Shown here one piece after another: positions 22,668 to 40,889 of a stretch of 64,000 bases of DNA (position 1 is its first letter; each line of letters starts with the position of its first letter). Below the pieces are notes generated by a model, which had not been told where the DNA came from, did not search any database, and saw only the letters and a list, made by a program, of their open reading frames with translations. The position numbers were made by a program, and so were the translations under genes. Location: the NCBI GenBank assembly GCA_903915655.1, contig CAIWTU010000045.1, positions 1 to 64,000 on the forward strand, in the 5' to 3' direction. Source of the DNA: an uncultured Geobacter sp. (GTDB lineage Bacteria; Desulfobacterota; Desulfuromonadia; Geobacterales; Geobacteraceae).

Positions 22668-24731
22668 ATGAGAGCTTTACGAACAGTTTTGTTGTTTGCG
22701 CTTGTTTTCTTGCTCTGCTTTTCTTTCGCAGGCGCAGAGGAGAAAAAAGGAGAGTCCGGTTATGAGGCCTATTCACTCGGAGAAATTTATGTTACAGGTG
22801 AAAAAACCCCTGTAACCCAACAGACGACAATCTCGAACACCATTACCGCCGAGGACATAAAGGCAACCAACAGTCGCACCGTTTCGGAAGCCTTGAGCTT
22901 TGCCCCTGGGATAAGTGTCACCACCGGGACCAAAAATGAGCCGAACATTTCCATTCACGGTTTTTTTGATCAAAGCAGAATCCTGGTGCTTATTGACGGT
23001 GTCCCTTACTATGAAACCAAATACGGGAAGCTCGACCTGAGTCAGTTTACAACCGACAATGTGGCGAAGATCGAGGTAACCAAGGGGGCGGCATCGGTTC
23101 TGTACGGCGCAAACGCCGAGGGTGGCGTTATCAATATCATAACCAAGCAGGCCAGCGGGAAGCCGTTCTTTTCGGTAAACCTGGAGGGTGGCGATGTCGA
23201 TTACTTCAAAGCATCCGTTTCGCACGGGATGAAAAAGGGGATATTCAACTACTGGCTCAACTATGATCATCAGCAGGCTCACGGATGGAATATGTCCAAT
23301 GGCTATACCCCCGTTCTTGCGACCATCACACCATCAGGCTTCAAACCTGCTCGTCCCGCATACAAAGCGGTGACAGAATCGGGCGGCACCCGGAAGCAGT
23401 CCGATTACGCTACGGACAGCTTCTGGGCCAAGTTCGGCATCGAACCGACAGCCGGCTCAGAGTACTTCCTCAATTTCCACTACGTCGACAAGGAAAAGGG
23501 GAATCCGCCATCTACCAGAGCCGTAAGAGTCATGCCCACTTTTTCCAATTTTTTCCGCTACAGTCAGTACAAGGACTGGGGTATTGACCTGAGTGGAAAT
23601 CAGAAAATAAATGACAAGTTGACCTTTACCAGCAAGGTTTTCTACCACAACCATGTTGACTCTCTCGATTCATATTCCAATGAGAACTTCAACTCTATTA
23701 TTGCCAGAAGCAATTATCGTGACTATATGGTGGGTGGGTCCCTCATAACCCAGTACCAGCTGAACCAGTGGAACACCATGAGGCTTGCCTTCAACTACAG
23801 GGGTGATTCCCATCGGCAGCGCGACCTTGAGACTTCGCCGTTTTTGGACTTCTTTGCCCTGACCGGCTCAGTCGGGCTTGAGGATGAAATTAACATCTCG
23901 AAAAATTTCTCGCTTGTCGTAGGCGCAAGTTACGACTGGTTCGGGGTGACGGAGGCCAACAAGGCCGGCACCACCGCCAGCTCTGTAGTCCGGATAGATG
24001 GAGGACCATCCAAAGACAGCTTTAATCCGATGGGAGGGGTCACCTATACACTCTCCGACAGCACAAAGCTGTTTGCCTCGATTGCGCAAAAGAGCCGTTT
24101 CCCGACGCTCGACCAGTTGTTCAGCAGCTCGAGTGGAAACAACACGCTGAAACCGGAAATTGCTCTGAACTCCACGATCGGGGTATCACGCGCCATCTCC
24201 AAGTACATGTGGGGGGAGCTCTCTTTCTTCTCCCATGATATAACCGACTTTATGAGCCGCCCCGACAGGAATAGCGCGTACGTTAACATCGGCCAGGTCA
24301 TGATTTACGGGATCGAGTTGAATACCGAGTTCTACCCGGTTCAGGATCTGATCCTGAAGGTGGCGTACAACTACAACCATGCTGCGGATAAGAGCAAGAA
24401 CAGGGTAACCGATATGGTTTTGTATGTCCCCGAGTATAAATTTGATCTCGGGGCCAGCTATACCGTTCCTTACGCGAAAACCCGCCTCGATCTCAACGGC
24501 ATCGTGCTTGGCAAGACCTACACCCAACTGCCGTCACCCTCCGCCCTGACTACGGCTGCAGTCGCCAATAGTGGCTATTTTACAATGAATGCGCGCGTGT
24601 CGCAAAAATTTCTGAAGAATTTTGAGGCGTATATAGCCTTGAACAATATTTTAGACAAAAACTACGAACCCGAAATCGGATATCCGGCACAGGGAAGAAA
24701 TATCTTCGGCGGGATAACGGCTAAGTTCTGA
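22668..24731 (+). CDS. TonB-dependent outer-membrane receptor 1
   Basis: A 687-residue active-transport porin. It has a signal peptide (about 1-23, ending in FAGAEE), a TonB-box-like YSLGEIYVTGE, a plug domain (about 50-160; LIDGVPYYETKYG, VLYGANAEGGVINIIT) and a 22-strand barrel ending in ITAKF with a terminal phenylalanine. AAAGGAGG precedes the ATG. It heads the exbB-exbD-tonB group, which probably energises it. Substrate unknown. The ModE-like box in front points to molybdate, tungstate or a chelate of them rather than a siderophore or B12, by inference only. Confidence 0.9.
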   Translation: MRALRTVLLFALVFLLCFSFAGAEEKKGESGYEAYSLGEIYVTGEKTPVTQQTTISNTITAEDIKATNSRTVSEALSFAPGISVTTGTKNEPNISIHGFFDQSRILVLIDGVPYYETKYGKLDLSQFTTDNVAKIEVTKGAASVLYGANAEGGVINIITKQASGKPFFSVNLEGGDVDYFKASVSHGMKKGIFNYWLNYDHQQAHGWNMSNGYTPVLATITPSGFKPARPAYKAVTESGGTRKQSDYATDSFWAKFGIEPTAGSEYFLNFHYVDKEKGNPPSTRAVRVMPTFSNFFRYSQYKDWGIDLSGNQKINDKLTFTSKVFYHNHVDSLDSYSNENFNSIIARSNYRDYMVGGSLITQYQLNQWNTMRLAFNYRGDSHRQRDLETSPFLDFFALTGSVGLEDEINISKNFSLVVGASYDWFGVTEANKAGTTASSVVRIDGGPSKDSFNPMGGVTYTLSDSTKLFASIAQKSRFPTLDQLFSSSSGNNTLKPEIALNSTIGVSRAISKYMWGELSFFSHDITDFMSRPDRNSAYVNIGQVMIYGIELNTEFYPVQDLILKVAYNYNHAADKSKNRVTDMVLYVPEYKFDLGASYTVPYAKTRLDLNGIVLGKTYTQLPSPSALTTAAVANSGYFTMNARVSQKFLKNFEAYIALNNILDKNYEPEIGYPAQGRNIFGGITAKF

Positions 24732-25336: not shown

Positions 25337-25459
25337 ATCTGAATCAGGTGGTATCGACCACCTTATTCGGGATAAAGACAATTACGGATCTTTTGCCTGA
25401 TTACTTTTCGGAGCGGGCGATCGAATCCTTATTGAACTCATTTGGGAGAGGAAAAAATA

Positions 25460-25894
25460 ATGGAATGGTTGAAAGAGGTCGTTGAATATGGTGTAATATG
25501 GGTTCTTGTTGCAATGAGCGTTCTGTCCGTCGGTATAGCGATTGAAAGAAACATGATCTACAAGAATTTGCAGCTGAATGACTTCCCGGACAAAAAATCG
25601 CTGGAACTTGAGCTGACTAAAAAACTTCACATCATAGCCACCATCGGTAGCAATGCCCCCTATCTCGGCCTCCTCGGCACTGTCCTCGGGATCATGCTTA
25701 CTTTTTATACCCTCGGCAGAGAAGGGTTTATGGATACCAACAAAATAATGATTGGCCTTGCCCTGGCCTTGAAAGCGACCGCCGTCGGGCTTGTCGTGGC
25801 AATACCGTCTATCGTGCTCTACAACCTGCTTCTAAGGCGAGCAAAAGTACTGATGCTGAAATGGGAGATCCGCAATGGAAGAAAAGGAATTTGA
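25460..25894 (+). CDS. exbB: ExbB/TolQ/MotA-family proton channel
   Basis: Inner-membrane subunit of the TonB motor. The 144-residue protein has an N-terminal helix ([17 protein letters not shown]) and the paired C-terminal helices of the family ([21 protein letters not shown] and [22 protein letters not shown]). ATG 25460 has GGGAGAGGA upstream, so the longer TTG start at 25442 is rejected. Shorter than E. coli ExbB. Overlaps exbD by 20 bases. Confidence 0.92.
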
Positions 25895-26255
25895 TTATAT
25901 AAACGTAATTCCCTTTGTTGACATAATGCTGGTTCTTCTGACCATCGTCCTTACCACCTCGACCTTTATTGCAACCGGAAGTATCCATGTGAATCTTCCA
26001 ACTGCATCGCAAAACCGGGCAGAAACCCTGAAGACCAGAACTGTCGAGATAGACGGGAAGGGAACCGTCCATTTCAACGGGCAGGCGGTGACCCTTGCAG
26101 GCCTACGTGCCACGCTCACCCCCCTGGACAGAAATACCCCTTTCCTTATAAGGGCCGACCGGGATATCCAGCTTCAGATATTTGTAGATGTTCTGGACAT
26201 GGTGAAAAACCTAGGTTTCAAACTGGTAAGCCTGCAGACCGAGATAAAGCGATGA
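25875..26255 (+). CDS. exbD: ExbD/TolR-family biopolymer transport protein
   Basis: The 126-residue protein has one transmembrane helix carrying the proton-conducting Asp in [17 protein letters not shown], then a periplasmic domain ([20 protein letters not shown]). The start lies inside the exbB end with GGGAG upstream, and the stop overlaps the tonB ATG (ATGA), so exbB-exbD-tonB is tightly coupled. Confidence 0.93.
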
Positions 26256-26965
26256 ATTGCCAGGTCAGGTCTTTACTCATATCCTTTCTGCTTCATTCAG
26301 GGCTGATTTTATTTGCGATTACCCTTACCAGTTCCTTCGCCCAACTCTCCAGGCCGGTGGTTGTTGACTTCTCAATCATGGCTTCCGCGACGCCCGACCC
26401 GCAACCGGAGAAGACGACGAAAAATACCAGGCAGGAAATCCAGACTCCGAAACAGAGGGTGGATCGAGAAAAAGTTTCAGAAAAACCAGAAAGAGCGAAG
26501 GTCCAGGCGGTCGCACCGACCTCTCCTCTTCCCGCGACCGAAGCAGCGGGGCCGGTTTCCGTAAGCGCTCCGATCCGGCAGACAACAAGCGTTGCCCGGC
26601 CGGAAGCGGGGAAGGGGGGTGCTTCCTCGGAACAGGGGAGGGTCACTTCGGGAGGGGGAACAGCTGGCGCCGTTGAGCAGATGAAAAGCCGGTACCTCAG
26701 GCAGCACTTCGACTACATAAAAGAACTTGTACAGAAGAATATCACCTATCCGGCTAAGGCGCGAAGAATGGGGTTGACAGGCAGGGTTGTCGTCTCCTTT
26801 ACCGTCCTGGAAAATGGCCACGTCGCAAATGTGAGGATTCTTGACAGCTCGGGCCATGATCTCCTCGACAATAACGTGCTGGAAACCGTCAGAGCGGTTG
26901 AGCCGTTTCCCAAACCGCCGGTCAGCGCCGAACTGCGGATTCCCATTTTCTACAGGATTAATTGA
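26252..26965 (+). CDS. tonB: Energy transducer TonB
   Basis: A 237-residue protein with an N-terminal membrane anchor (SLLISFLLHSGLILFAITL), a long Pro/Lys/Glu-rich periplasmic spacer (about 45-145) and a C-terminal TonB domain (YPAKARRMGLTGRVVVSFTV then PFPKPPV). It links the ExbB/ExbD motor to the two TonB-dependent receptors in this window. Last gene of the cluster; convergent with the deaminase gene. Confidence 0.92.
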   Translation: MNCQVRSLLISFLLHSGLILFAITLTSSFAQLSRPVVVDFSIMASATPDPQPEKTTKNTRQEIQTPKQRVDREKVSEKPERAKVQAVAPTSPLPATEAAGPVSVSAPIRQTTSVARPEAGKGGASSEQGRVTSGGGTAGAVEQMKSRYLRQHFDYIKELVQKNITYPAKARRMGLTGRVVVSFTVLENGHVANVRILDSSGHDLLDNNVLETVRAVEPFPKPPVSAELRIPIFYRIN

Positions 26966-27105: not shown

Positions 27106-27819
27106 CTAATGATTATGGTCTACCGCCATGTACATGGGGCGAAAAAGCCTTGCCGCAAGCGCTCTCAACTCCGGGGAGCAGCGGGCGGGCTTGATGACCA
27201 TTCCCTCCCCCATTCGCTTCCAGGAAGGGGGGAGGTTGTCAAACCTTTGGGCCATCCCCCCCTCTTCGTCGGTTGCGGCATAGTAGACTTCCTTTACCCC
27301 GGAATTGATGATCCTGGTGATACACATCGGGCAGGGTTCGAGGGATGTGTAGAGGACGATCCCTTTCATGTTGCGCGGATTGCGGAACGTCGGGTTGTTC
27401 GGGTCACTCGATCTGGTCAGCTTCATTTTCTCTTCATAGCGGTCCAGGAGGTCCATCTCGGCATGAAGGTCACTGCGGAAGTAGGGGACATACTGGCGGT
27501 TATGGGCCTGTTCAATTACCTCCCCTGTTGATTTCCGGACCAGGCAGGCGCCTATTCCGCCGTTACGCTCCTTTGCACCTTTGAGCCCCTCCCTTACAGT
27601 GACCAGAATGGCTTGTTCATCCGGATAACGCGGGTCGGAAAGATGGGCGCTTAGTTCTCTTTCTATCGCGTCGAGTTCGCCTGGACGGAGAGGCGGCAGG
27701 CTGCTGCCGATGGCGGGGGGGTGGCTGCAGCCGGCAAGGGATAGGAAAAGCAGACAGAAGCAGAGGGCTTTCTTCAGGAGTGCAGCTGGACGATACTTCA
27801 GACAGCGGGAGTTGCGCAT
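27106..27819 (-). CDS. Secreted lipoprotein of the cytidine/deoxycytidylate deaminase family
   Basis: A 237-residue protein with a lipoprotein signal peptide (LSLAGC, lipidated C31) followed by a deaminase domain with the zinc motif H119-A-E121 and PCPMC (C163, C166). Such enzymes are normally cytoplasmic, so a lipid-anchored periplasmic form is unusual. A PCPMC motif is common to guanine, cytosine and tRNA adenosine deaminases. The start chosen, ATG 27819, has AGGAG upstream and removes a polar N-terminal extension. It stands alone between tonB and the ABC importer. Substrate unknown. Confidence 0.8.
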   Translation of the reverse strand: MRNSRCLKYRPAALLKKALCFCLLFLSLAGCSHPPAIGSSLPPLRPGELDAIERELSAHLSDPRYPDEQAILVTVREGLKGAKERNGGIGACLVRKSTGEVIEQAHNRQYVPYFRSDLHAEMDLLDRYEEKMKLTRSSDPNNPTFRNPRNMKGIVLYTSLEPCPMCITRIINSGVKEVYYAATDEEGGMAQRFDNLPPSWKRMGEGMVIKPARCSPELRALAARLFRPMYMAVDHNH

Positions 27820-27905
27820 TTCATGGTCTCCTCTTCTATTCGGATCAATTCGTCCCTTCATCGGCGTTTTTCATGGGAATCTTCGTCTTCTGAGCGTTTC
27901 CCCTC

Positions 27906-28694
27906 CTACAGGGAAGGGAAACAGGCCTTCCTGTTGATACCTTCACCTACCTGGATCACCTTGACATCCACCCCATAGGCGTCCCTCATGTTGAAATCGG
28001 TGATGACCTCTTCCGGTGGCCCCTTCTGCGCAAAGCTCCTCTTGTTCATGATGGCAACTTCAGTAGCGGCTATAAAGGCGTGGTCAGGGAAATGGGTTGC
28101 CATAACTATCCCCATCCCTCCTTCCGCAAGGCCCTTCACCACCCTCAGTATTCTCACCTGGTTCCCCAGGTCGAGATGCGATGTCGGTTCGTCAAGGACC
28201 ATTACCCTCGGTTCCTGGGCAAGTGCCCGAGCGATCAGGGTGAGCTGCCATTCCCCGCCGCTCAGCATGGTGCAGGGGCGCTCTTCGAGTGAAAGTATGC
28301 CGACCGTCTCCATTGCGGCGCAGGCAATTCTACGATCTTTTTTGGCGGGGGATGAAAAAACATTGAGGTGCGGCGCCCTCCCCATGACCACGATGTCCCG
28401 GACCTGGAATGGAAAAGATGGCACCTGGTTCTGCGGCACATAACCGATCCCCTTGGAGACGTCGGAGGTTTTCATGGAGGATATCTCCCGCCCGTCGAGT
28501 CGGATAGTGCCGCGCCAACCCTGAAAAACATTGCACACACACTTGAGGAGGGTCGTCTTGCCCGTGCCGTTGGGACCCAAAATGCAGAAGATATCACCCC
28601 GTCGGATGGAAAAGGAGACGTCGCGAAAAACGGAGTGCGCCGGATCATTGGTGTAGCTGAAGGCAAGGTCCTGTACATCTACAAGTGGGATCAT
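27906..28694 (-). CDS. ABC importer ATPase (BtuD/FecE/MolC type)
   Basis: The 262-residue nucleotide-binding subunit of a type II importer. Walker A GPNGTGKT (40-47), signature LSGGEWQL and Walker B VMVLDEPTSHLD are intact. It starts three bases after the permease stop. The subfamily transports vitamin B12, heme, ferric chelates or, in MolBCA, molybdate/tungstate. The nearby ModE-like site favours the last. Confidence 0.93.
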   Translation of the reverse strand: MIPLVDVQDLAFSYTNDPAHSVFRDVSFSIRRGDIFCILGPNGTGKTTLLKCVCNVFQGWRGTIRLDGREISSMKTSDVSKGIGYVPQNQVPSFPFQVRDIVVMGRAPHLNVFSSPAKKDRRIACAAMETVGILSLEERPCTMLSGGEWQLTLIARALAQEPRVMVLDEPTSHLDLGNQVRILRVVKGLAEGGMGIVMATHFPDHAFIAATEVAIMNKRSFAQKGPPEEVITDFNMRDAYGVDVKVIQVGEGINRKACFPSL

Positions 28695-28697
28695 TTC

Positions 28698-29732
28698 TTA
28701 CCACCCCGAGCGGGTCTTCCGCAGCAGATAGGCGAAAATCGGGGCGCCTACCATGGCGGTGAGGATCCCGATCGGTATCTCCGATTCGATTGCGGTCCTG
28801 GCAAGTGTGTCGACCGCAACCAGATACGAAGCGCCAACCAAAACAGCGACAGGAAGGAGGTGTTTGTTGTCCGGACCTACGAGGAGCCTGCCGATATGGG
28901 GGATCACCAGCCCTATCCACCCGATGATTCCCGCGATCGATACGGCTGCAGCAGAGATCATTGTTGCGCAGACTATGATGGTTAGTCTGATGCGTCCGGT
29001 GTCAACGCCGAGGGCCCGTGCATCCTCTTCTCCCATGGCGAGCAGGTTTATCCTCCAGCGTATGAGGAGCAGGACCGTAATGCCAACCAGGATAATCGGC
29101 CCGACAATAACCATGTCCTTATTGGAGGCGTTGTTGAGTGAACCGAGAAGCCAGAATACGATGGACGGCATGTTGTTGACCGGGTCGGCGATGTACTTGA
29201 GAAGGGAGGTGGAGGCGGAGAAGAGTGCACCCACGATGATTCCCGAGAGGACCAGCATCAGCACCGGCGTGCTCCTGTAGACCCTGCTGAGGCCGTAGGT
29301 CATGCTGACAGCGATCAGGCTGAAGACAAAAGAGAAGAACTGGATTGCGATGATGTTGCCGAAGAAGAGGATCGCCAGCGCAGCCCCTAGGCCCGCCCCG
29401 GCGGATACGCCGAGGATGTGGGGCGAAACCAGCGGGTTGCGGAACAGCCCCTGGAAAGAGGCGCCGGAAATGGAGAGGCCCGCCCCCACGAGGATCCCGG
29501 CGTACAACCGCGGGAGGCGCACATCGAAGAGGACCGATTCGAGGGTCGGCGCCCAGGTCTGCTCGATTGGGAAGAGACGTGAAGCGAAGATCTTGAGTAT
29601 GGTCGCGGCAGGTATCGTCAGCTGGCCGAGCATGAGAGAGGCCACAGCGACGACCGCGAGCAGTAGGGTCAGAAAGATCATCAGCTTTCCCGGCATGATT
29701 CCTAATCCGACTTTCTTTCCGCTGGAATACAT
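28698..29732 (-). CDS. ABC importer permease (BtuC/FecCD/MolB type)
   Basis: A 344-residue protein with about ten transmembrane segments and the family motifs RLPRLYAGILVGAGLSISGA near the N-terminus and GWIGLVIPHIGRLLVGPDN in the coupling-helix region. ATG 29732 follows AGGAG. Organised as binding protein, permease, ATPase in one operon. Confidence 0.95.
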   Translation of the reverse strand: MYSSGKKVGLGIMPGKLMIFLTLLLAVVAVASLMLGQLTIPAATILKIFASRLFPIEQTWAPTLESVLFDVRLPRLYAGILVGAGLSISGASFQGLFRNPLVSPHILGVSAGAGLGAALAILFFGNIIAIQFFSFVFSLIAVSMTYGLSRVYRSTPVLMLVLSGIIVGALFSASTSLLKYIADPVNNMPSIVFWLLGSLNNASNKDMVIVGPIILVGITVLLLIRWRINLLAMGEEDARALGVDTGRIRLTIIVCATMISAAAVSIAGIIGWIGLVIPHIGRLLVGPDNKHLLPVAVLVGASYLVAVDTLARTAIESEIPIGILTAMVGAPIFAYLLRKTRSGW

Positions 29733-29740
29733 CTAATCTC

Positions 29741-30856
29741 CTACCTCTTTCCCTCTGTCGGTCCGAACTTGAGTTTAAAACTCCCGCTCAGAAGCGCCTG
29801 CGCCTGCGTGTCGCTCAGGTTGAACTCCATGATTTCCTTGTAAAACCTCTTTACTTCCCGCACCATGTCGATATCTCCGAAACGCTCCGGGTACGCGACC
29901 TTGGCAAGCCAGAGCGGATGCAGAACAGCAGCTTCGGCGGTCGGTCGGTCCCAGATGAAGATCCCTACCGGCTGCATATAGACCTGCCTGTTGCGGATTG
30001 CCCTGACATTTTTCCATCTCGGGTCATTGTAAAGGTCCTCGGGTTTCCCCGAATCTATGACCATGATGTCTGCGTCCCAGTTGAGCGCCTTTTCCAGCGA
30101 CATTTCCGACAGTCCCGAATGAAGCCCCTCCTTTACACCTGACGTGCTTATTCCCGCAGTTGCATCGGTGCATCCTGCGGTCACTATCCGCTCATGCATG
30201 AAGGTGTCACCACCGAGTGTCACCAGGTGGCTATGGCTGTAACCGTTAAAGACCTTTTTCCGTTTCCCCGCAGGGATGTCTCTGGTTCTGGAGTTGACGA
30301 AGGCAATAGTTTTTTCCAGATAGGCGATATATTTCTCGCCCCGCTTCTCTTTTTGAAAGACTGAGGCGTAAAACCGAATCTCACGCTTGAGAAGAGTGAG
30401 GCCATGACTCATGCTGCTTTCGGTATAGGCAACCGGGATTTTGGTCTTTTTTTCCACGATGGAACCGTCCAGTGTCCCGGCGATGACCAGCTCTGGATTG
30501 GAGAGGAGCAGTTGCTCGATGTTGATATGTCCGCTGACGCTTCTCGGTCCAGGAAGGTCCTTGACGGTCGGGTCGAATGCATTCACCAGTTCGGAGCCTT
30601 TTAGCGAGCTGGTCACAGCGCAGAGCTGGTTTCTGGCCCCGAGGATGTAGGCGAGCTGCCCTGTGGGACCTCCGAACAGCGCAACCCTGGTAAGGGGGTC
30701 AGGGATCTTGATCTTCCTGCCGTACATGTCAGTGATCAGGCGGGTCTTTCCGATCTCCGGCGACTGACTCTGCCGAGTTGCCGCGACTACCGGGGTCAGG
30801 TTCAGTGAGAGAGTCAGAAAAAGAAGAATTTTAACAAGAAGGGGCATTGATTTCAT
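29741..30856 (-). CDS. Periplasmic metal/chelate-binding protein of the importer (BtuF/MolA type)
   Basis: Class III substrate-binding protein, 371 residues, with an N-terminal signal peptide (LLVKILLFLTLSLNLTPVVAA). Family features are the opening ITDMYGRKIKIPDP, a central GGPTGQLAYILGA and the C-terminal HPLWLAKVAYPERFGDID segment, also common in MolA and siderophore-binding proteins. The start is taken at ATG 30856 (AGGAG eight bases upstream) because the longer frame to 31051 would place 65 residues before the signal peptide and run through the operator. It is divergent from the radical SAM gene. Confidence 0.9.
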   Translation of the reverse strand: MKSMPLLVKILLFLTLSLNLTPVVAATRQSQSPEIGKTRLITDMYGRKIKIPDPLTRVALFGGPTGQLAYILGARNQLCAVTSSLKGSELVNAFDPTVKDLPGPRSVSGHINIEQLLLSNPELVIAGTLDGSIVEKKTKIPVAYTESSMSHGLTLLKREIRFYASVFQKEKRGEKYIAYLEKTIAFVNSRTRDIPAGKRKKVFNGYSHSHLVTLGGDTFMHERIVTAGCTDATAGISTSGVKEGLHSGLSEMSLEKALNWDADIMVIDSGKPEDLYNDPRWKNVRAIRNRQVYMQPVGIFIWDRPTAEAAVLHPLWLAKVAYPERFGDIDMVREVKRFYKEIMEFNLSDTQAQALLSGSFKLKFGPTEGKR

Positions 30857-30951: not shown

Positions 30952-30999
30952 TACTTCTTGACATGAAGAGACGCGATATGTCAAGAAGTATATAGCGAT
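30952..30999. promoter_or_regulatory. Perfect 13-bp dyad overlapping a ModE-like box
   Basis: Between the divergent binding-protein and radical SAM genes, TACTTCTTGACAT (30952-30964) is repeated exactly inverted at 30978-30990 after 13 bases. Overlapping it, CGCGATATGTC (30972-30982), six bases, then TATATAGCGAT (30989-30999) resembles the ModE operator; the right half is a perfect fit. Probably controls both transcription units. Confidence 0.55.
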
Positions 31000-31040: not shown

Positions 31041-32048
31041 ATGAGGTGCAACTATTGTGAATGGCGCTGTGAACTTGCGGGGGGGGATTTCGGCGTCTGC
31101 CGCATGTATATCGAGGATGGGGGGGCAATAAAGGAGCGATTTCCCCACAGCTGGTCGAGCTGTATCCCCTCCCGGATTGAATCGATACCGTTCTATCATG
31201 TCTGGCCCGGCAGCAGGAGCCTTGTCATAGGTACCTGTGGCTGCAACTTCAGCTGCCGGTACTGCTCCAACGGTTTTGTGGCCAAGGAGGACCCGGGGCT
31301 GGTATTCGATGGAATGATAACGCTCACCCCGGCGGAACTGGTCAGAAAGGCGCGTCAGATGGGGTGCCACAACATTGTCTTCAACGTGAACGAACCGGCC
31401 ATGTCCTTTCCTACCCTGGTCGAGCTCGCAGAAGTGGCCGGGGGGGCGGGGATTCCGATGGGATGTCTTACCAATGCCTATACGACTGAAGAATCTACCG
31501 AGCTCCTCGCATCGATCTTCTCCTTCTTCAATGTCGGTCTCAAGGGGCTGTCGGCCGGGTTCAACCGGGAGTATCTCGGCATCCCTTCAGCCGGACCGGT
31601 GCTGAGGAATATCCGGAGGCTGGCCGCTACGGCGCACGTGGAGATAACGACCCCGGTCATAGAGTTGGCCAACGACAATGAGCTTGACGAGATAGCCCGA
31701 TTCATAGCCGATGTCGATCCGGAGATCCCCTGGCATGTCTTCCGTCTTCTCCCCGAACACGAGATGAAGGAGGCCCGATACCCCGATATCGATGCCATCG
31801 ACAGGGCGCTCAGGTCTGCCCGTAAGCTCCTCCCTTACGTTTACTTTCACAATTTCGTCGGTTCGGACTGGGTCAATACAATCTGCCCGGGGTGTGGCGC
31901 GACGGTGATCGAACGCTTCAGCCTGGGGTGTGGCGGCGACAGGCTTCATTCGTTCAACTGCGATGGGACCGTATGCCCGGATTGCCGTCGGGAGATCAGG
32001 CTCCATGGTGTCAAGGTGGCGTGGAACGCCGGGGAGGTGCGACCATGA
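31041..32048 (+). CDS. Radical SAM protein, AmrS/PflA-like
   Basis: A 335-residue enzyme. An N-terminal cysteine group (C3, C6, C10, C20) is followed by IPFYHVWPGSRSLVIGTCGC and the radical SAM motif C68-x3-C72-x2-C75. A C-terminal Cys-rich part (TICPGCG, GTVCPDCR) may bind another cluster or zinc. The layout resembles the radical SAM component of the AmmeMemoRadiSam system and pyruvate formate-lyase activating enzymes, but the Memo and AMMECR1 partners are absent. ATG 31041 follows AGGTG. The stop overlaps the next ATG (ATGA). The substrate is unknown; the partner gene and the ModE-like promoter are the only clues. Confidence 0.85.
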   Translation: MRCNYCEWRCELAGGDFGVCRMYIEDGGAIKERFPHSWSSCIPSRIESIPFYHVWPGSRSLVIGTCGCNFSCRYCSNGFVAKEDPGLVFDGMITLTPAELVRKARQMGCHNIVFNVNEPAMSFPTLVELAEVAGGAGIPMGCLTNAYTTEESTELLASIFSFFNVGLKGLSAGFNREYLGIPSAGPVLRNIRRLAATAHVEITTPVIELANDNELDEIARFIADVDPEIPWHVFRLLPEHEMKEARYPDIDAIDRALRSARKLLPYVYFHNFVGSDWVNTICPGCGATVIERFSLGCGGDRLHSFNCDGTVCPDCRREIRLHGVKVAWNAGEVRP

Positions 32049-33184
32049 GCCTCGCAATAATCGATGCCCGCGAATGGCAGAATGTCTTCGATCTCAGGAC
32101 CGGAGCCAAGATCGTGGAAGAGAGCCCGCTCCTCGGGATGGTGAGGGAGGTGCAGGCGCGGCGTCCTTATCCGGGAGACATGGATTCATCGGGGAACAGG
32201 TGGGTGAGCGATACGGCTCTGGACCTTATGAACCGGTACGACCCCTCCTTCGTCTTCCTGACCTATGCCCAGCAGTTTTTTTCCGGTCGCTACTCCATCC
32301 AGACAGAGAAGGAATGGGGAGACGCGATTACCGACCTCTACCGCGAGGTGGAACGGTTTATCAATCTTTCCGGGTTTACACCGGTTATAGTAGGAACTGG
32401 GGATATGACCCCTTTCGTCGATTTTATTGATGTGACGCAGCTCAAAGGGCTGGTACTCGCTACCCACTGGTCGGCCCGCTATGCCGGTCTTCACGAACCG
32501 AGCAGTGGGGACTTGAAATATCTGGACGCTCATTCCGGGATAGAACGTATCGTCCACCGGGACGATTTCCTGCGACTGTTCGCGGAGAGCTCGGGAGACC
32601 GGTCAAGGGTTCCGGAATACCTCCTGGTTGCCAAGGAAGGTTATATGTTCAGGACCGTGGGGGGCGCCTTCCGCAGGGTACGGCGGGTACCCGCGCAGAG
32701 CTTTTTTATTCCCGTTGCAACGGAAATGGGAGAAGTGTCGACGATTACCGGTATTCGGGGCCTTATCGATTCCGGTATTGGCAAACGGAAGATCGCCCTG
32801 ATCATGGTAGAGGGTATCGGGCTCAGAGACTTCCCGTGGGCCTCCCAGAGATGCGACAACGGCCGGGAGTGGTTCTACCACGAGCCGGGCGACGGCCAGT
32901 ATCTCACTATCTCGACCGGCAGGCATCAGCTGTTCGACTATCCGACCGGGTACAAATATTTCGAGGAGGATGCAGAAAAGAAGGAGTTCCCCTTTTCTGG
33001 ATATTTCAGATCCGTGCCGGAAGATACTCTCGCAGAGCGCTACGACGTGAGGAGCATCTCAGTCGGAAACAGGAGCATGTTCATGCATATGGCGACGGGA
33101 ACAGACATTTCTATCGAGTGTTTTGCCAGGAACCTTTTCAACCAGGGGACCATGGCGGTGATTCACAGGATGAACAAGATATGA
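32045..33184 (+). CDS. Conserved-looking protein of unknown function coupled to the radical SAM gene
   Basis: A 379-residue soluble protein without signal peptide or membrane segments, translated by ATGA overlap with the radical SAM gene. Notable segments are DMDSSGNRWVSDTALDLMNR near the N-terminus, VIVGTGDMTPFVDFID, THWSARYAGLHEPSSGD and a late WFYHEPGDGQYLTISTGRHQ. The many Asp/His residues would suit a metal-dependent hydrolase (alkaline-phosphatase-like superfamily is a guess), but I recognise no firm motif. Most likely it provides the substrate or the next step for the radical SAM enzyme. Confidence 0.75.
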   Translation: MSLAIIDAREWQNVFDLRTGAKIVEESPLLGMVREVQARRPYPGDMDSSGNRWVSDTALDLMNRYDPSFVFLTYAQQFFSGRYSIQTEKEWGDAITDLYREVERFINLSGFTPVIVGTGDMTPFVDFIDVTQLKGLVLATHWSARYAGLHEPSSGDLKYLDAHSGIERIVHRDDFLRLFAESSGDRSRVPEYLLVAKEGYMFRTVGGAFRRVRRVPAQSFFIPVATEMGEVSTITGIRGLIDSGIGKRKIALIMVEGIGLRDFPWASQRCDNGREWFYHEPGDGQYLTISTGRHQLFDYPTGYKYFEEDAEKKEFPFSGYFRSVPEDTLAERYDVRSISVGNRSMFMHMATGTDISIECFARNLFNQGTMAVIHRMNKI

Positions 33185-33291: not shown

Positions 33292-33319
33292 ATCGAAATA
33301 TATTCTTGTATATTTCGTT
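33292..33319. promoter_or_regulatory. ModE-like operator upstream of the lipoprotein/TonB receptor 2 unit
   Basis: ATCGAAATATA, the spacer TTCTTG, then TATATTTCGTT. The core CGAAATATA / TATATTTCG is a perfect nine-base dyad with a six-base spacer, the geometry of ModE operators. It lies about 180 bases upstream of the lipoprotein start. The remaining 33320-33496 holds no gene. Confidence 0.55.
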
Positions 33320-33496: not shown

Positions 33497-34957
33497 TTGA
33501 TTCGTTCTTGGCGCGATTTGTCTATCTTTCTGCTGGTCGGTTTCTTCTCTTTTTTCCTTTTATCCTGTGGGGGGACGGTGGCCAGGTATAACCCCGGACC
33601 GACAGGGGCCCCCACAGCCCTGACGGTCACTTCGACAGGTGACGGGGCGGTTTCGCTCAGCTGGTCCCCTCCGGCCGATAATCCCCCGGCGTACAATGTC
33701 TACTATTCCACTTCCCCGGATGTGAAGAAGTCGACCGGTACGAAGTTCGCCACCACGACGAGCACCACCGCAGTCGTGACCGGGCTGAAGAACGACACCC
33801 TTTACTACTTCGCGGTAACGGCCGTTAATTCCAGCGGTGAAGGGCCGGAATCGAACGAAAAGTCTGCCACCCCGGCCGTGCCCGGTGATTTTGCCCAGAC
33901 GGACATGGCCGGTTCCTGGCGGTTCAATATTCTGGTTTCCGGCACTGCCGCAGGATGGATGCGTGGCGCGGTGACCGTCAGCGACACCGGTGCGGTAACC
34001 TTTGACAGCTTCCTGGACAGCTCCGGGAGGAGTGTCGCGCCTTCCTACCTCTTTCCCAGGCTTCTCATCAACCCGACCGGCCACATACGGGATGCCGTCA
34101 ACGCAGATGACGCGCAATTCCGGGGCGCAATGGCAACAAGGCGTAATATGGTTGTCGGGAAAATGTCTCCGGACGTCGGTTCAAGGATGATCGCGATACT
34201 GCAGAAGCATGCCCCGAGCGTTGGATTCACGCTCAGCGGGGATATCAACGGTTTTAGCTCCACCGGGGGAGCGGGGGGAGCGCGCCGCTTCGTCTATTCC
34301 CAGATATCCACCGGTTCCGTGAGCGAGTGGGAATATGCTGTCGGGCAGATAGGCCAGGCGCCGGATGTCCAGTATCCAACCTTTACAGCCCCTTCAGGGC
34401 GTACTAAACCGGGCGACAAGTCGAGCAGGCTTTCCATAACCTCGGCCGGCATTGTCAGCGAAGCGAACAGCACCGGCTCCCCGAAGCCGACCGTACTGAT
34501 CCCGGCTGGGGTCATGTCCGACGACAAGACGGTGATCGTGGCGACGGCCACCGACTCGAGCAGCGGGAACAAGTACATCCTCCGTATCTACCAGATGATA
34601 AATATCGTATCAAAGGATGCAAATAGCATTACCCTGGCCGATCTGGCTGGAACGTACGGCATCAACCAGCTTACGGTCGGCAGCGCCCCTCTCTGGGCCT
34701 CCTCCCTCCTGACGGTTGGTTCCACCGGAGGGGCGGTTTTTTCAGATTTCCTGGACAGCGAAGGTGGCACCACCCCGCCTCCTGAGATGACCCTGGCCAT
34801 AGATACAGTTGTTGACCCAACGAAGCCCGCTTGGAGCGGTATCATCACGAACAGCGCCGATACAACGTTTCATGGCAAGCTTTCCTATTCCAAGGACATG
34901 GTGGTTTTCACCCGGACGGCGAGTGGGCTTTACAGCCTGTTCATCGGGCTTAAGTGA
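33497..34957 (+). CDS. Fibronectin type III lipoprotein with repeated C-terminal domain
   Basis: A 486-residue outer-envelope lipoprotein (lipobox LLSC, C24). A fibronectin type III domain (about 40-130) is followed by two copies of a beta-rich module, seen in MAGSWRFNILVSG...FDSFLDSSG and LAGTYGINQLTVG...FSDFLDSEG. The start is a TTG with GGGGGTG upstream. Only 52 bases separate it from the second TonB receptor, so the two are probably co-transcribed; it may be a surface-exposed partner of that receptor. Function unknown. Confidence 0.8.
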   Translation: MIRSWRDLSIFLLVGFFSFFLLSCGGTVARYNPGPTGAPTALTVTSTGDGAVSLSWSPPADNPPAYNVYYSTSPDVKKSTGTKFATTTSTTAVVTGLKNDTLYYFAVTAVNSSGEGPESNEKSATPAVPGDFAQTDMAGSWRFNILVSGTAAGWMRGAVTVSDTGAVTFDSFLDSSGRSVAPSYLFPRLLINPTGHIRDAVNADDAQFRGAMATRRNMVVGKMSPDVGSRMIAILQKHAPSVGFTLSGDINGFSSTGGAGGARRFVYSQISTGSVSEWEYAVGQIGQAPDVQYPTFTAPSGRTKPGDKSSRLSITSAGIVSEANSTGSPKPTVLIPAGVMSDDKTVIVATATDSSSGNKYILRIYQMINIVSKDANSITLADLAGTYGINQLTVGSAPLWASSLLTVGSTGGAVFSDFLDSEGGTTPPPEMTLAIDTVVDPTKPAWSGIITNSADTTFHGKLSYSKDMVVFTRTASGLYSLFIGLK

Positions 34958-35009: not shown

Positions 35010-37001
35010 ATGAACTCTCGCGCCAGATACTCCCTTTCCCTCCTTCTTGCCTGTACTCTCCTTGCGTCTCCATTCACCTCCCGAGCTGAGGATACCGGGG
35101 ATGATGCCACCACCTTTACCCTCGGCGAGATTGTCGTCTCCGGCAAGAAACCGGAAGCGGAAGCAGTCGGCACAGTGCATGAAGTGACCGCCGCCGATAT
35201 CCAGGCCTCCGGCGCCCGTGACTTGAATGAGGCAATCAGTCTTCTCCCCGGCGTCAATATCAGGGTTGGCGCTGAAGGAGTGCCGCGTATCGACATCCGG
35301 GGGTTCCGTACCCGCCATGTAGTCCTGCTCCTGGACGGCGTTCCCTTCAGCTCCGCTTTTGATCAGCAGTTCGATCCCACCCTGATACCTGTGGAGAATA
35401 TTGCCCGTATCAAGGTAACGGCCGGACCGAACTCCGTCCTCTATGGCCCCGGCGGACTCGGAGGTGTAATCAACATCATCACGAAAAAGGGGAGCAAGGA
35501 ATTCAAGGGGATGGTCGGGACGGAAACCGGGGACCATGAACCGTATCGCACCAAGGGAAGCGTTGGTGGCTCCGTCGGCAATTTCGATTTTTTCCTGAGC
35601 GGCAGCGCGGCGGATGTCGATGGTTTCCCCCTCTCTGGCGACTACAAGCCGACAACCCTGCAGGGAAAAGGGTATAGAAACAACAGCGATAGCCAACGTA
35701 ACAACCTCTTCGCCAGCTTCGGCTTCTCACCGACCAGAGATATCTCCCTCGGCCTGACCGTCAGCTATCTGAACGGCGATTATGGCAAGCCGGCAAGTAT
35801 TATTGCCGACCCCTACGACCCCTTTGCCTCGACGCCGAAATACGATCGCGTCAACAACTTTAACGGTTACGCGGTCCAACTCGCGGCGGATTATCAGGTC
35901 ACGTCGCAGTTCAGTCTCCGCTCCTGGCTCTATTTCAACCGTCTGGACCAGAAGGAGAGTCAGTACGACAACGCCCTCTTGAACTCCTACAACCTGGTGG
36001 CCGGTTCCTTTCTCTCAAATAACCAGTCGGATGTAATCGGCATCTCCCTGCAACCGAAATACGACTTCGGGAAGGGGGGGGTCGTCACCCTCGGCCTTTT
36101 TACCGAAAAGGACAGCTGGAAAAATAACGGCTTCACCACAACCGCCCCGAACAGCTACACCCTCGACAACGAAAGCAGGAACTACACACTCTATTCCGCA
36201 TCTGCGCAATACGAGGTCTCTCTCCTCCCCTCTCTTGGCCTTGTGCTCGGCTACGGCCAACATTGGCAGGAGCGGGGGGAACGGAGCGACAACGGTTGGA
36301 GTCTGATGGCAGGGGTCCATTACGATATCCTCAAGGATACCCGACTCAAAGCGTCATTTCAGAGAAATATCCGATTCCCCTCGATCCGGCAGCTCTATGA
36401 GAAGCCGAGTGACAACCCGCTTCTGCAACCGGAAGTGGCCTACCTTTATGAAATAGGCGTTGAACAAAAGCTTCCGGGTAAGAGCCTGGTGAGCCTTACC
36501 GGCTTTAATACCACGGCTAATAATTTCATCCAGAAGGATGAGGCGACCAACAAGAACCTGAACTACGCCGAGTGCCGTTTCCAGGGTATCGAACTGGCCG
36601 GACAGACGAAGATCTTCCCGAGGCTTCTTTTACGTGGATCCTACACCTATCTTGATTCCAAGGACAAGTCGACACCGGGGCACGACGAGTATCAATACAG
36701 CCCGAAGCACCGTGTCACCCTCGAAGGGAAATACGATTTCGACTTCGGCCTGACCCCCTACGTATCGTTCCTCTACGCGGGAGACCAGTACAGCTATACC
36801 AAAAGCAGCTATACTCCGGTTCTCAAGGCGCAGATGAGCAACTATACCGTTGTAAACATGAAGCTGAACCAAAAGATACTGAAAGACAAGATGAACTTTT
36901 ACATCGGCCTGGATAATCTCTTTGATGCAAACTACGAGACCAGTTACGGTTTTCCGCAGGCCGGCAGATTCATTTACGGCGGTATAGAGTTCCGCATCTA
37001 G
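35010..37001 (+). CDS. TonB-dependent outer-membrane receptor 2
   Basis: A 663-residue receptor with signal peptide (cleaved near SRAEDTG), TonB-box-like FTLGEIVVSGK, plug (about 45-160; LLLDGVPFSSAFDQQ and VLYGPGGLGGVINIITKKG) and barrel ending in YGGIEFRI. It shares layout with receptor 1 and probably uses the exbB-exbD-tonB motor encoded 8 kb upstream. GGAG precedes the ATG. A strong terminator follows. Substrate not known; molybdate/tungstate or a chelate is suggested by the upstream ModE-like site. Confidence 0.92.
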   Translation: MNSRARYSLSLLLACTLLASPFTSRAEDTGDDATTFTLGEIVVSGKKPEAEAVGTVHEVTAADIQASGARDLNEAISLLPGVNIRVGAEGVPRIDIRGFRTRHVVLLLDGVPFSSAFDQQFDPTLIPVENIARIKVTAGPNSVLYGPGGLGGVINIITKKGSKEFKGMVGTETGDHEPYRTKGSVGGSVGNFDFFLSGSAADVDGFPLSGDYKPTTLQGKGYRNNSDSQRNNLFASFGFSPTRDISLGLTVSYLNGDYGKPASIIADPYDPFASTPKYDRVNNFNGYAVQLAADYQVTSQFSLRSWLYFNRLDQKESQYDNALLNSYNLVAGSFLSNNQSDVIGISLQPKYDFGKGGVVTLGLFTEKDSWKNNGFTTTAPNSYTLDNESRNYTLYSASAQYEVSLLPSLGLVLGYGQHWQERGERSDNGWSLMAGVHYDILKDTRLKASFQRNIRFPSIRQLYEKPSDNPLLQPEVAYLYEIGVEQKLPGKSLVSLTGFNTTANNFIQKDEATNKNLNYAECRFQGIELAGQTKIFPRLLLRGSYTYLDSKDKSTPGHDEYQYSPKHRVTLEGKYDFDFGLTPYVSFLYAGDQYSYTKSSYTPVLKAQMSNYTVVNMKLNQKILKDKMNFYIGLDNLFDANYETSYGFPQAGRFIYGGIEFRI

Positions 37002-37113: not shown

Positions 37114-37139
37114 GGGCTCCCCCTCCGTTGCTTTTTATT
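37108..37139 (+). terminator. Rho-independent terminator after TonB receptor 2
   Basis: A perfect nine-base stem ACGGAGGGG / CCCCTCCGT with a three-base loop, followed by TGCTTTTTATT. Confidence 0.85.
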
Positions 37140-37157
37140 ACCAGAAAATTGGGCAGC

Positions 37158-38579
37158 ATGGAAAGGATGGAGCCACCCCGGATGCTGGAGGTAACTGGAC
37201 TGACATATTGCTATCCCGGGGAACGGCAGCCCGTTTTGAAGGATGTTTCCTTTCGTGTTGCGGCAGGTGAGTCTGTCTGCTTCAGCGGCCATTCTGGCTG
37301 CGGCAAGACGACCCTGCTACTGGCGCTGAAAGGGCTGCTGCACGAGGGTACGGTTGGCGGCGAGATCCAGTATGGGGAGGAGGGTTCAACTTCGGATGCT
37401 CCCCTGTCAGGGGTCGGTCTTGTTTTTCAGAATCCCGAATCCCAGCTGCTCTGTGCCACCGTCTTCGATGAAATAGCATTTGGTCCGGAAAATCTGCGAC
37501 TCCCCCCCTCCGAGATCAACAGCCGCATCATCGAGGCGTTGACGGCCGTTGACCTCCTTGAGTTCGGCAACCGGAACGTGGAGCGCTTTTCAGCCGGGCA
37601 GAAGCAGCGTCTCTGCATCGCAGCCGTGCTCTCTATGCATCCCCGGTTTATCCTGTTGGACGAGCCTACATCCCAGCTGGACAGGAAGGGGAGGGGGGAT
37701 CTCCTGAAGGTTCTGCTTCAACTGAAAAAAAAGGGGATCTCGATCATTCTGGCCGAGCACAACAGCCACCCTTTTTTGGAGATCATTGACCGTTATTATC
37801 TTATGTCAGACGGCGCAATTACCGATGTCCTTGACCATCCCCCGGAGCAATACCGCTCCCTCCCCCCCCGCAATTCGGTGAAGATTCGTCCAGAAGGGAA
37901 AACGGCTTCTCCTCCGCTGGTCTTGGCGGAAAGGCTCTCCGTTTCCTATCCCGGTAGTGGAACGATCCTCAAGGAGATCACGTTTGCCTTAACGCCGGGG
38001 GAGCTGGTTCATCTCCATGGCGAAAACGGCTGTGGTAAATCTACCCTCCTCAAGACCATCGCCGGCGCCATCCAGCCGGAGACTGGAAACCTCTGCGTCG
38101 CGAACCAAAACTTCCCGAAGGTGGGTGGACTGCTCGGTACGGTTGCCCTCCTCTTTCAAAACCCACAACGACAGCTGTTCGAGGATACGGTGTATGACGA
38201 GGTTGCCTTTACCCTCAGACGATTGAAGCTGTCACACGTCGAGATCGACCGACGCGTACAAGCGGCCCTGGCGTCCTGCGAAGCTACCCACCTGATTGAG
38301 AGGTTGCCGCTTACCCTCAGCTTCGGCGAACAGCACCGGGTTGCCCTCGCCTCGGTCATTGCTCCAGACCCCGGCGTGCTCCTCCTTGACGAGCCCTTTG
38401 CCGGACTGGACCCGAACCAGCGTCTCCGGCTCCTTCGGATACTCACCTTGCTGCGGAGTGAAATGGGCTCGGCCATTGTCATCGCATCTCATGATCCCCT
38501 TCCTGATCCTGAATGGGCCGACAGAATCGTCGTTATGGAAGCGGGACGAATTGTGACCGGGGAGGCGCACCCGCAGTGA
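37158..38579 (+). CDS. ECF transporter ATPase, two ABC domains fused
   Basis: A 473-residue protein with two complete nucleotide-binding domains, as in fused EcfA-EcfA' proteins. The first has GHSGCGKT and FILLDEPTSQLD, the second GENGCGKS and VLLLDEPFAGLDPN. Energises a group II energy-coupling-factor transporter for a vitamin or metal. The start may be ATG 37158, 37167 or 37182; the last has GGAG nine bases upstream. Its stop overlaps the next gene start (GTGA). Confidence 0.9.
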   Translation: MERMEPPRMLEVTGLTYCYPGERQPVLKDVSFRVAAGESVCFSGHSGCGKTTLLLALKGLLHEGTVGGEIQYGEEGSTSDAPLSGVGLVFQNPESQLLCATVFDEIAFGPENLRLPPSEINSRIIEALTAVDLLEFGNRNVERFSAGQKQRLCIAAVLSMHPRFILLDEPTSQLDRKGRGDLLKVLLQLKKKGISIILAEHNSHPFLEIIDRYYLMSDGAITDVLDHPPEQYRSLPPRNSVKIRPEGKTASPPLVLAERLSVSYPGSGTILKEITFALTPGELVHLHGENGCGKSTLLKTIAGAIQPETGNLCVANQNFPKVGGLLGTVALLFQNPQRQLFEDTVYDEVAFTLRRLKLSHVEIDRRVQAALASCEATHLIERLPLTLSFGEQHRVALASVIAPDPGVLLLDEPFAGLDPNQRLRLLRILTLLRSEMGSAIVIASHDPLPDPEWADRIVVMEAGRIVTGEAHPQ

Positions 38580-39355
38580 AAAGAACGAGATTTTCGGAAA
38601 GCGACTACGCGTGCCAGTACCGGGCGGTCGACTCTATGATACATCGGCTCCCTGCGGGGTGCAAGATGCTTCTCAGCACCGTACTGAGCGTAGTAATTCT
38701 GGTAGTGCGGGAACCTGTCCCCCTACTGCTGGCAACCGCACTCTGCTTTCTCTACTACTTCCTTGCCCGGCTCACCCTTGGAGACCTGTGGCGAGATATC
38801 CGTTTTTTTATGATACAGTTCTGCGTTCTCCTTTCCCTCTTTCTCTACCAGTACGGTTATCCGGCCGGAGTCTGGCCAGGGGTCCGGACCTCTCTGCAGA
38901 TCATGCTCTTCTTCATCCCTGGCATCGTATTTCTCCGTACGACCCAGGTGTCAAGCATGATGAAGGGGTTACGGCGGATACTCCCCTACCGGATCATGTT
39001 TCTTCTCTTCACCTCTCTCCGGTTTGTACCCTTCTTTGCCCGGGAGATCCAGGAGATCGCCATGGCGCAGAGGCTTCGAGGGGCGCGGCTGTCGGCGTGG
39101 GATATCTATCGTCCCATTTTTTGGGGTGACCTCTTTTCCTGCATCATCATCCCGATGATCGTGCGGGCGCTTAAGACGGCCGATGAAGCGTCACTCTCGG
39201 CCCAGTCGCGTGGAATGGGCGCTTACCCGGACCGGACCTATTACGATATACGGGAGCTGGAGGGACTAATCGCCCGGAGCCGTGGCGAAGAATCGTCCGA
39301 CAGAGGGGGGGAGAACTCCCCGGAAATGGACCGGGAATCAGACCTGAATCGTTGA
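38576..39355 (+). CDS. ECF transporter T component (CbiQ/EcfT family)
   Basis: A 259-residue membrane protein with about five helices and the two short coupling motifs of EcfT (AQRLRGAR and AQSRGMGAY, each with the Ala-Arg-Gly core that docks on the ATPases). GTG 38576 has GGAGG upstream and overlaps the ATPase stop. Middle gene of a three-gene operon. Confidence 0.9.
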   Translation: MKRTRFSESDYACQYRAVDSMIHRLPAGCKMLLSTVLSVVILVVREPVPLLLATALCFLYYFLARLTLGDLWRDIRFFMIQFCVLLSLFLYQYGYPAGVWPGVRTSLQIMLFFIPGIVFLRTTQVSSMMKGLRRILPYRIMFLLFTSLRFVPFFAREIQEIAMAQRLRGARLSAWDIYRPIFWGDLFSCIIIPMIVRALKTADEASLSAQSRGMGAYPDRTYYDIRELEGLIARSRGEESSDRGGENSPEMDRESDLNR

Positions 39356-39462
39356 TGGCTCAAGCGACAGGGAGCGGAGCCGGCCAGAGGGGCCTCTCTG
39401 GAGGACCGGAGAGGCTGCCCCAACGAATGCACCACTACTGCCATAAGGAGGTTATTAAAGGA

Positions 39463-40023
39463 ATGAAAAACGAGGTAGCATTTCTCTGGAACCGTTTCAC
39501 CATGCGAGAGGCGTTGCTTCTCGGCTTCTGCGCCACCTTTATTGTCCTGACCAAGGCAACGTTGAGGATGAAGTTGGGCATATCCGGCCATTCCATGTTC
39601 TTTCTGCTATTCTTCCTGCTGCTCGCACGCGGCATCGTGCCGAAGACGGGGGCGGCGACTCTTGTCGCACTTCTGGCAGGCGGGATCAGCATTGCCCTCG
39701 GTCTGGCCCACAAAGGGCCAGTTATTATGCTGAACTTTCTTCTCCCAGCCCTTGTTCTCGACTTCGCAGGTATTTTCCTGCCTCAGATGACCTCCAGGCA
39801 TCTGTTATGCCTTCTGATCGGCGGAATTGCAGCTGCAAGCAAGGGGGTGAGCAGTGCCGTCGTAGAATTGATCGCCGGAGCGCCGATGAAGATTGTTATT
39901 CAGGCAGCAGCTATCGAGGGGGCAGGGGGGGTGATTTTTGGCATGCTCGGCGCCCTTCCCGTCCCTTCCATCATCCGGAAACTCCGGACCAATCGCCTGA
40001 TACCATCTCCAGGAGACAAATAG
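39463..40023 (+). CDS. Probable ECF transporter S component (substrate binding)
   Basis: A 186-residue, five-to-six-helix membrane protein. ATG 39463 has AAGGAGG 11 bases upstream; the longer frame starting at 39352 adds a polar extension. It lacks the N-terminal MHI metal-binding start of NikM/CbiM, so it is not the classical nickel/cobalt S component. Substrate unknown; neighbouring nikR suggests nickel and the upstream operons suggest Mo/W, but neither is proven. Confidence 0.75.
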   Translation: MKNEVAFLWNRFTMREALLLGFCATFIVLTKATLRMKLGISGHSMFFLLFFLLLARGIVPKTGAATLVALLAGGISIALGLAHKGPVIMLNFLLPALVLDFAGIFLPQMTSRHLLCLLIGGIAAASKGVSSAVVELIAGAPMKIVIQAAAIEGAGGVIFGMLGALPVPSIIRKLRTNRLIPSPGDK

Positions 40024-40322
40024 GGAACGTTTTGCCGTTCGTCACCGGTAACCGAGGCTGGATCTTTATAGCGGGTTGAATATGTAAGGGGAGAGCTCCT
40101 TTGTCGTAAAGGGCTCTCCCCTTCAACTTTTTTTGGAGATTCCGCAGACTGATTGTTTGCCGCAGAAGAGAGAATATTTTTTTATTGGAGGATGCAAAAA
40201 AAATGTGTATTAATACCAAGGGCTATTTTATCCAGGCTCCGCAGAGGTTGTAACCCTACTGTTTGGGCATCATAACTCCTGCGGATGGGAAAACGGACTG
40301 GGAAAAAGGAAGGGGAAAATGA
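40024..40322. other. Intergenic region upstream of nikR
   Basis: Contains the terminator of the ECF operon (listed) and a ten-base palindrome GTATTAATAC near 40207-40216. I found no sequence matching the known GTATGA-type NikR dyad. Confidence 0.3.
40086..40134 (+). terminator. Rho-independent terminator of the ECF operon
   Basis: Perfect 11-base stem AAGGGGAGAGC / GCTCTCCCCTT with an inner short stem in the loop, followed by CAACTTTTTTT. Confidence 0.88.
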
Positions 40323-40742: not shown

Positions 40743-40889
40743 CGGGGCAATCTCATGTTTATTTATGCTTGCCTTTACCGGCATTTGAAATTAAACTGTG
40801 GAATTAAGGCAGAGTCCCCTGGAGAGAGTCGCTCTTGACTCCGTTCAGGCGGTACAGGGCAAATATGATTAAAGATGGAGGTTAGAGAA

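Follow-up and report, generated by a model that had tools for sequence, protein, structure and literature searches.

A radical SAM enzyme and an uncharacterised partner protein in a putatively ModE-controlled metal-import island of an uncultured Geobacter

Introduction

In the hmu operon (hmuRTUV-exbBD-tonB), the radical S-adenosylmethionine (SAM) enzyme HmuW opens imported heme and frees its iron, and the adjacent protein HmuF hands over the substrate (PMC10404700). Other described systems that bear on the locus studied here are the MolABC importer of Haemophilus influenzae, the AmmeMemoRadiSam system with its radical SAM enzyme AmrS (TIGR04337), and the DUF364/DUF4213 and FmdE proteins. We analysed 64,000 nucleotides of DNA from an uncultured Geobacter sp. 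(GenBank assembly GCA_903915655.1, contig CAIWTU010000045.1, positions 1 to 64,000 of the forward strand; hereafter the window), in which two genes at 31041-33184 encode a radical SAM enzyme and a partner protein beside a predicted metal importer. As in the systems of HmuW/HmuF (ChuW/HutW), a TonB receptor, ExbBD-TonB, a binding protein, a permease and an ATPase stand together with a radical SAM enzyme and its adjacent, dedicated partner (PMC10404700). In contrast to those systems, both members of our pair are unrelated to HmuW and HmuF by family and the predicted control is of the ModE type rather than by iron, so that the two systems would be alike in working only. With MolABC the island shares a same-family binding protein (HI_1472 in H. 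influenzae), a permease and an ATPase, and it differs in pairing the importer with TonB receptors and with the radical SAM/partner module. H. influenzae MolABC is not known to have either. DUF364/DUF4213 and FmdE proteins are distinct from the pair, but they recur as its neighbours, and in the window's genome they lie under a duplicate of its control region.

Molybdenum is a limiting element for nitrogen fixation and for many anaerobic respirations, and little is known of the ways in which anaerobes scavenge the metal other than by ModABC. The predicted control of the pair by molybdenum is our firmest new result, a strong computational link. The radical SAM enzyme and its partner probably make or break the organic carrier with which molybdenum enters the cell. 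The proposal we favour, and hold tentatively, is that the pair works in the cytoplasm as the processing module of a ModE-controlled island for the acquisition of molybdenum (possibly tungsten) and alters the imported ligand. In the literature searched we found no description of molybdenum uptake that involves a radical SAM step.

Results

The gene pair is an operon that recurs in constant order

The pair consists of the following genes.

31041 to 32048, forward strand: radical SAM enzyme, 335 amino acids, AmrS-like but in a clade of its own (PF04055 at 2.5e-14; TIGR04337 at 124 bits against a cut-off of 220; tree)
32045 to 33184, forward strand: partner protein, 379 amino acids, in no Pfam, NCBIfam or PDB family, with the motif GN[RKN]Sx3Hx5Dx3EC at residues 341-359 and an invariant G368

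An earlier note on this DNA had described two genes that overlap by four bases and share a divergent control region with a MolA-like gene, and both points proved correct. The two open reading frames (ORFs) have ATGA in common; the radical SAM gene starts at ATG 31041, preceded by a Shine-Dalgarno-like stretch GAGGTG, and the partner gene at ATG 32045. Both are divergent from the MolA-like gene, whose methionine start lies at about 30856 on the opposite strand. The pair forms an operon, and its divergent control region is shared with the MolA-like gene.

We found the pair in 25 loci, in all of which a radical SAM homologue directly precedes the partner (25/25). Three of these loci (L041-L043) encode both proteins as a single fused ORF of about 660 amino acids; a longer fused ORF, of 968 residues, owes part of its length to read-through of another gene. 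The fused partners are 26-28% identical to the window's partner, and the remaining ones 46-68%. A recurrence of this kind, with the same order throughout and three fusions, is not chance. The partner is rare and patchily distributed: 17 of 277 genomes of the class and 6 of 395 genomes from a sample of the phylum carry a homologue (both counts include the window's own genome), and homologues also occur in Bacillota metagenome-assembled genomes. Among 56 relatives, the partner accompanies all seven radical SAM enzymes of the pair type, and one further locus (L030) holds a degenerate partner fragment without a radical SAM gene, beside ModE. Comparison of neighbourhoods over the 25 loci showed the pair to be conserved together and to belong with a MolA-type importer and TonB receptors, and the partner fell into no known family; on these two points, by which the earlier note had proposed to be judged, its reading came through. 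A mobile-element origin found no support, as plasmids, phages and viral contigs gave no match.

ModE-type sites suggest molybdenum control of the pair

The ModE consensus is ATCGNTATATA-N6-TATATANCGAT, and a G. sulfurreducens site reads ATCGTTATGTCATGAAGGTTATAGCGTT (PMC545781, PMC2700814). Three operator-like sites and an inverted repeat lie in the control regions of the island.

22557 to 22584: ModE-type operator-like site, 16/20 consensus positions, 84 nucleotides before TonB receptor 1
30952 to 30990: 13-nucleotide perfect inverted repeat TACTTCTTGACAT-N13-ATGTCAAGAAGTA, which overlaps the next site and is also present in the duplicated control region at G000:C83
30972 to 30999: ModE-type operator-like site CGCGATATGTC-AAGAAG-TATATAGCGAT, 16/20 consensus positions, between the MolA-like and radical SAM genes
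33292 to 33319: ModE-type operator-like site, 17/20 consensus positions, before the genes for a lipoprotein and TonB receptor 2

The site at 30972-30999, CGCGATATGTCAAGAAGTATATAGCGAT, has 21 of 28 bases as in the G. sulfurreducens site. Sites of at least 16/20 numbered three in the window and none in 100 local dinucleotide shuffles, and sites of at least 15/20 numbered 13 in 22 pair loci against 0.45 expected; 367 kilobases of AmrS control loci held no ModE-type site.

We then searched the whole genome with a degenerate form of the site pattern, which had only four matches. One precedes the pair, a second precedes another MolBC set and an FmdE-DUF364 part at C83, and the remaining two precede a molybdopterin-binding protein and a Mo enzyme of the xanthine-dehydrogenase type. 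Since the control pattern, read backward, matched three places genome-wide, the count alone is not significant, and it is the positions of the four matches that constitute the evidence. The second importer set and FmdE-DUF364 at C83 are preceded by a nearly identical 150-bp copy of the control region found in the window (L154, G000:C83:136000-148500, with its site near 142046). In two relatives (L012, L013) the FmdE-DUF364 part adjoins the pair, and the duplicate control region therefore links parts that form one cluster elsewhere.

The genome also encodes three ModE-like proteins (L157, L158 and L159), candidates for the ModE layout of an HTH and two TOBE domains, of which L158 combines HTH_1 and TOBE domains. 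A palindrome above chance in the control region and a candidate regulator in the same genome are both consistent with membership of a ModE regulon. One of the three full-length ModE-like regulators lies beside MoaA and an aldehyde:ferredoxin-oxidoreductase-like gene. No Rfam match to a molybdenum-cofactor or other riboswitch was found within the window.

The pair lies in a predicted TonB/MolABC import island

Around the pair we identified the following genes.

22668 to 24731, forward strand: TonB-dependent receptor 1 (cluster C5)
25442 to 25894, forward strand: ExbB (sequence inspection; cluster C14)
25875 to 26255, forward strand: ExbD (sequence inspection; cluster C17)
26252 to 26965, forward strand: TonB (sequence inspection; cluster C10, which like C14 and C17 is common to L012 and L028)
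27906 to 28694, reverse strand: MolC-type ATP-binding cassette ATPase with visible Walker A and LSGGE signature (cluster C3)
28698 to 29732, reverse strand: FecCD/MolB-type permease (sequence inspection; cluster C4, which recurs in pair loci)
29741 to 30856, reverse strand: MolA-like substrate-binding protein (Peripla_BP_2; 97 bits to solved MolA HI_1472, 3psa)
33497 to 34957, forward strand: predicted lipoprotein with a fibronectin-III-like stretch, directly after the 33292 site, without an NCBIfam match
35010 to 37001, forward strand: TonB-dependent receptor 2

Among solved relatives with a named function, H. influenzae MolA is the best match of the MolA-like protein, and this Peripla_BP_2 protein together with the permease and the ATPase would make up an importer of the MolABC type. 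Next to the importer ATPase, at 27106-27861, lies a predicted lipoprotein that matches a TadA-like deaminase and whose relatives stand beside importer genes in L013 and L040.

As a control for the neighbourhood, the 25 pair loci were compared with 20 true-AmrS loci from the same and related genomes. An importer binding protein was found near the pair in 20/25 loci and around true AmrS in 0/20. The same contrast held for the permease (16 v 0), the TonB receptor (13 v 0), TonB (9 v 0), DUF364 (9 v 0), FmdE (8 v 0), molbindin/ModE (5 v 0) and methyltransferases of the clusters MT6 and MT8 (7+7 v 0). Individual loci carry further genes of molybdenum metabolism: in L025, modE, modD, modA, modB, modC, nifH and nifD come after the pair, L011 holds MoeA-type genes, molbindin and DUF364, and L021 and L029 hold ModD.

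If the island served another metal or cofactor (tungsten, a corrinoid, nickel or iron), the ModE-type sites would reflect cross-regulation only. The TonB receptors do score best against models of B12, heme and siderophore receptors, CobD (19336) and an energy-coupling factor (ECF) transporter with NikR (37128-40742) lie nearby, and the relatives of MolA-type binding proteins include nickel and iron ones. Against this stand the ModE-type sites themselves, MolA as the relative of the binding protein, and the Mod, Nif, MoeA and molbindin neighbours, all of which point to molybdenum or tungsten, and we consider service to another metal rather improbable. Tungsten is indistinguishable from molybdenum on these data.

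A proposed role in processing the ligand of molybdenum

Since the layout of the island is that of the hmu heme operon, we propose that the radical SAM enzyme and its partner process the organic ligand of molybdenum. A TonB receptor, powered by TonB-ExbBD, would import a molybdenum-ligand complex, and the MolABC-type importer would move this complex across the inner membrane. The radical SAM enzyme would then chemically alter the organic ligand while the dedicated partner (32045-33184) holds the substrate, most likely freeing the metal for synthesis of the molybdenum cofactor or the nitrogenase cofactor. We infer that the pair acts on the imported ligand, degrading rather than building it, with the partner as substrate holder; specificity for molybdenum or tungsten, the ligand and the direction of the chemistry are likewise putative.

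A close rival, which we judge somewhat unlikely, runs in the opposite direction. Here the pair, a methyltransferase and DUF364 would build a secreted molybdophore or pterin-like chelator that is taken up again via TonB/MolABC. SAM-methyltransferases beside the radical SAM gene (14 loci-counts of MT6/MT8) and DUF364, which has been proposed from genome context to act in flavin, pterin or siderophore synthesis for Mo, W, Fe and V (PMC2954201), are the neighbours that make this rival close. Against this rival, no conserved small ORF for the precursor of a ribosomally synthesised and post-translationally modified peptide was found near the pair, and no exporter, nonribosomal peptide synthetase or polyketide synthase recurs among the neighbours of the pair.

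Several points weigh against ligand processing under molybdenum control. The ModE-type sites are sequence matches only. The radical SAM enzyme is not of the HutW/ChuW type, and no model of that kind with a flavodoxin partner was among the NCBIfam and Pfam matches listed for either protein. SAM-methyltransferases and DUF364 recur as neighbours, and ligand synthesis would account for them just as well. Three pair loci (L016, L024, L038) lack an importer in the stretch examined, partly because the contigs are short. Finally, the comparison with AmrS loci used reference clusters built on the pair loci, which are themselves related to one another; its p values are consequently too small, although the contrast is still plain.

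The island, a compact gene set for which both a regulator and a metal are predicted, makes DUF364, FmdE ('putative heavy-metal chelation') and AmrS-like enzymes directly testable.

The radical SAM enzyme is related to AmrS but separate from it

The enzyme belongs to the radical SAM superfamily (PF04055 at 54 bits, cut-off 29.5) and carries the CxxxCxxC motif as CNFSCRYC. C68, C72 and C75 are invariant in 24 members, and the Cys pairs at both ends of the protein are invariant in all unfused homologues. Its layout is AmrS-like, as had been noted before, with an N-terminal CxxC...C ribbon, the CxxxCxxC core and C-terminal Cys pairs, and the best named model is TIGR04337 (AmmeMemoSam_rS). Likeness to AmrS ends there: the score falls well below the curated cut-off, and clade, partner and neighbourhood all differ. 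In a maximum-likelihood tree of 55 radical SAM enzymes, 25 AmrS lay on one side of a 100/100 branch, and the window's enzyme fell outside them in the pair clade (100/98); the pair, fused and long groups each formed a clade.

The earlier note had further suggested that the Memo and AMMECR1 partners of AmrS are replaced here by the unrelated protein. The window's genome encodes its own bona fide AmrS (G000:C83, 344 bits) and Memo (G000:C81) on other contigs, and comparison of profiles finds no likeness of the partner to Memo (0.7 %). With the clade separation, this means that nothing has been replaced as far as Memo is concerned (AMMECR1 was not searched for), and the pair is, by these comparisons, a paralogous system running alongside AmmeMemoRadiSam. 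That it might instead be the AmmeMemoRadiSam system itself with a diverged Memo would agree with the shared Cys ribbon, core and C-terminal pairs, but in view of the 124 v 220 bits, the separate AmrS and Memo, the 100/100 branch and the partner's dissimilarity to Memo we regard this as hardly credible.

AmrS-like radical SAM enzymes of 600-650 amino acids form a sister group in which the C-terminal part is a MolA-like substrate-binding domain (hhalign 99.9 %). Its members (L022:10778-12616, L023:925-2751, L114:7601-9403, L115:7103-8911, L116:6715-8673 and L117:7622-9421) adjoin MolA-like genes, DUF364, FmdE, MoeA and TonB receptors. We know of no described fusion of a radical SAM enzyme with a periplasmic binding protein. 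This sister design and the partner-radical SAM fusion fit an enzyme acting on the cargo of the importer. With slightly more reserve than for ligand processing, we suggest that the locus represents new anaerobic metal-acquisition chemistry, in which a radical SAM enzyme and a new protein family open or build a molybdenum carrier (a molybdophore or pterin-like complex) within a ModE-controlled TonB/MolABC island, in two sister designs, the radical SAM-partner fusion and the radical SAM-MolA-like fusion.

The partner matches no known family

Profile searches bore out the earlier description of the partner as uncharacterised: neither the single sequence nor the 24-member set gave a Pfam, NCBIfam or PDB-sequence match. 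Invariant residues include D45, W53, E101, D156, N342, S344, H348, D354, E358, C359 and G368, with E358, C359 and G368 kept in all 24 members, fusions included.

The N-terminal half faintly resembles the alkaline-phosphatase superfamily, which is not to say that it is a member. With all 24 sequences, hhalign matched residues 47-227 to the C-terminal half of PF01663-type enzymes (88 %, E 3e-6), other profiles reaching at most 2 %; with sequence subsets the match fell to 2-7 % in an unchanged register, and column-shuffled profiles reached 3.2 % at most. In the reverse search, partner ORFs, some of them duplicates, made up 12 of the 30 best non-family matches to the PF01663-type model (about one expected), and the top three outside matches to the partner model were members of the PF01663-type model. 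VIA-align of the poor structural model gave phosphonoacetate hydrolase, SPAP and ENPP enzymes at Z of about 4. Against membership, no member has a Pfam match to PF01663, the metal-ligand motifs of alkaline phosphatases (D..H, DHG) are not kept, the aligned positions reading TYAQQ and GTG[DG]M, and the N-terminal half of the enzyme core was not found in the expected order.

The AlphaFold model of the partner had a predicted local distance difference test (pLDDT) score of 47, and the C-terminal half alone scored 33; Foldseek with this low-confidence model returned nothing at E<=0.001. Prp43/Clp1-type rows in the VIA list, which derive from the same model, were treated as chance. A circular permutation of the phosphatase fold had been suspected from the C-half motifs ALIMVEGIG and TISTGRH, and was dropped as unproven, the C-half having no profile match; residues 228-379 received no assignment.

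The invariant C359 and G368 near the end of the partner, and the relation of the radical SAM family to glycyl-radical activases (49 bits to the pyruvate formate-lyase activase subfamily TIGR02494), could indicate that the radical SAM enzyme installs a radical or other modification on the partner, which would then be the working enzyme. None of the 24 members matches the Pfam glycyl-radical domain, nor any other sensibly at E<=1, and the context of the Gly is unlike the glycyl-radical RVxG motif. The single-chain fusion does not discriminate, and we hold such a modification to be improbable.

In three related loci (L002:2416-3567, L014:8208-9389, L015:8164-9237), an alkaline-phosphatase-like gene is convergent to the partner gene.

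Genes downstream of the island

The stretch at 37128-42149 begins with an ECF-type transporter, comprising a double ATPase, a membrane protein (38513) and a protein without a family (39352). NikR (40323) and a homocitrate-synthase-like gene (40875) follow it. A protein like that at 39352 also lies near the pair in L038.
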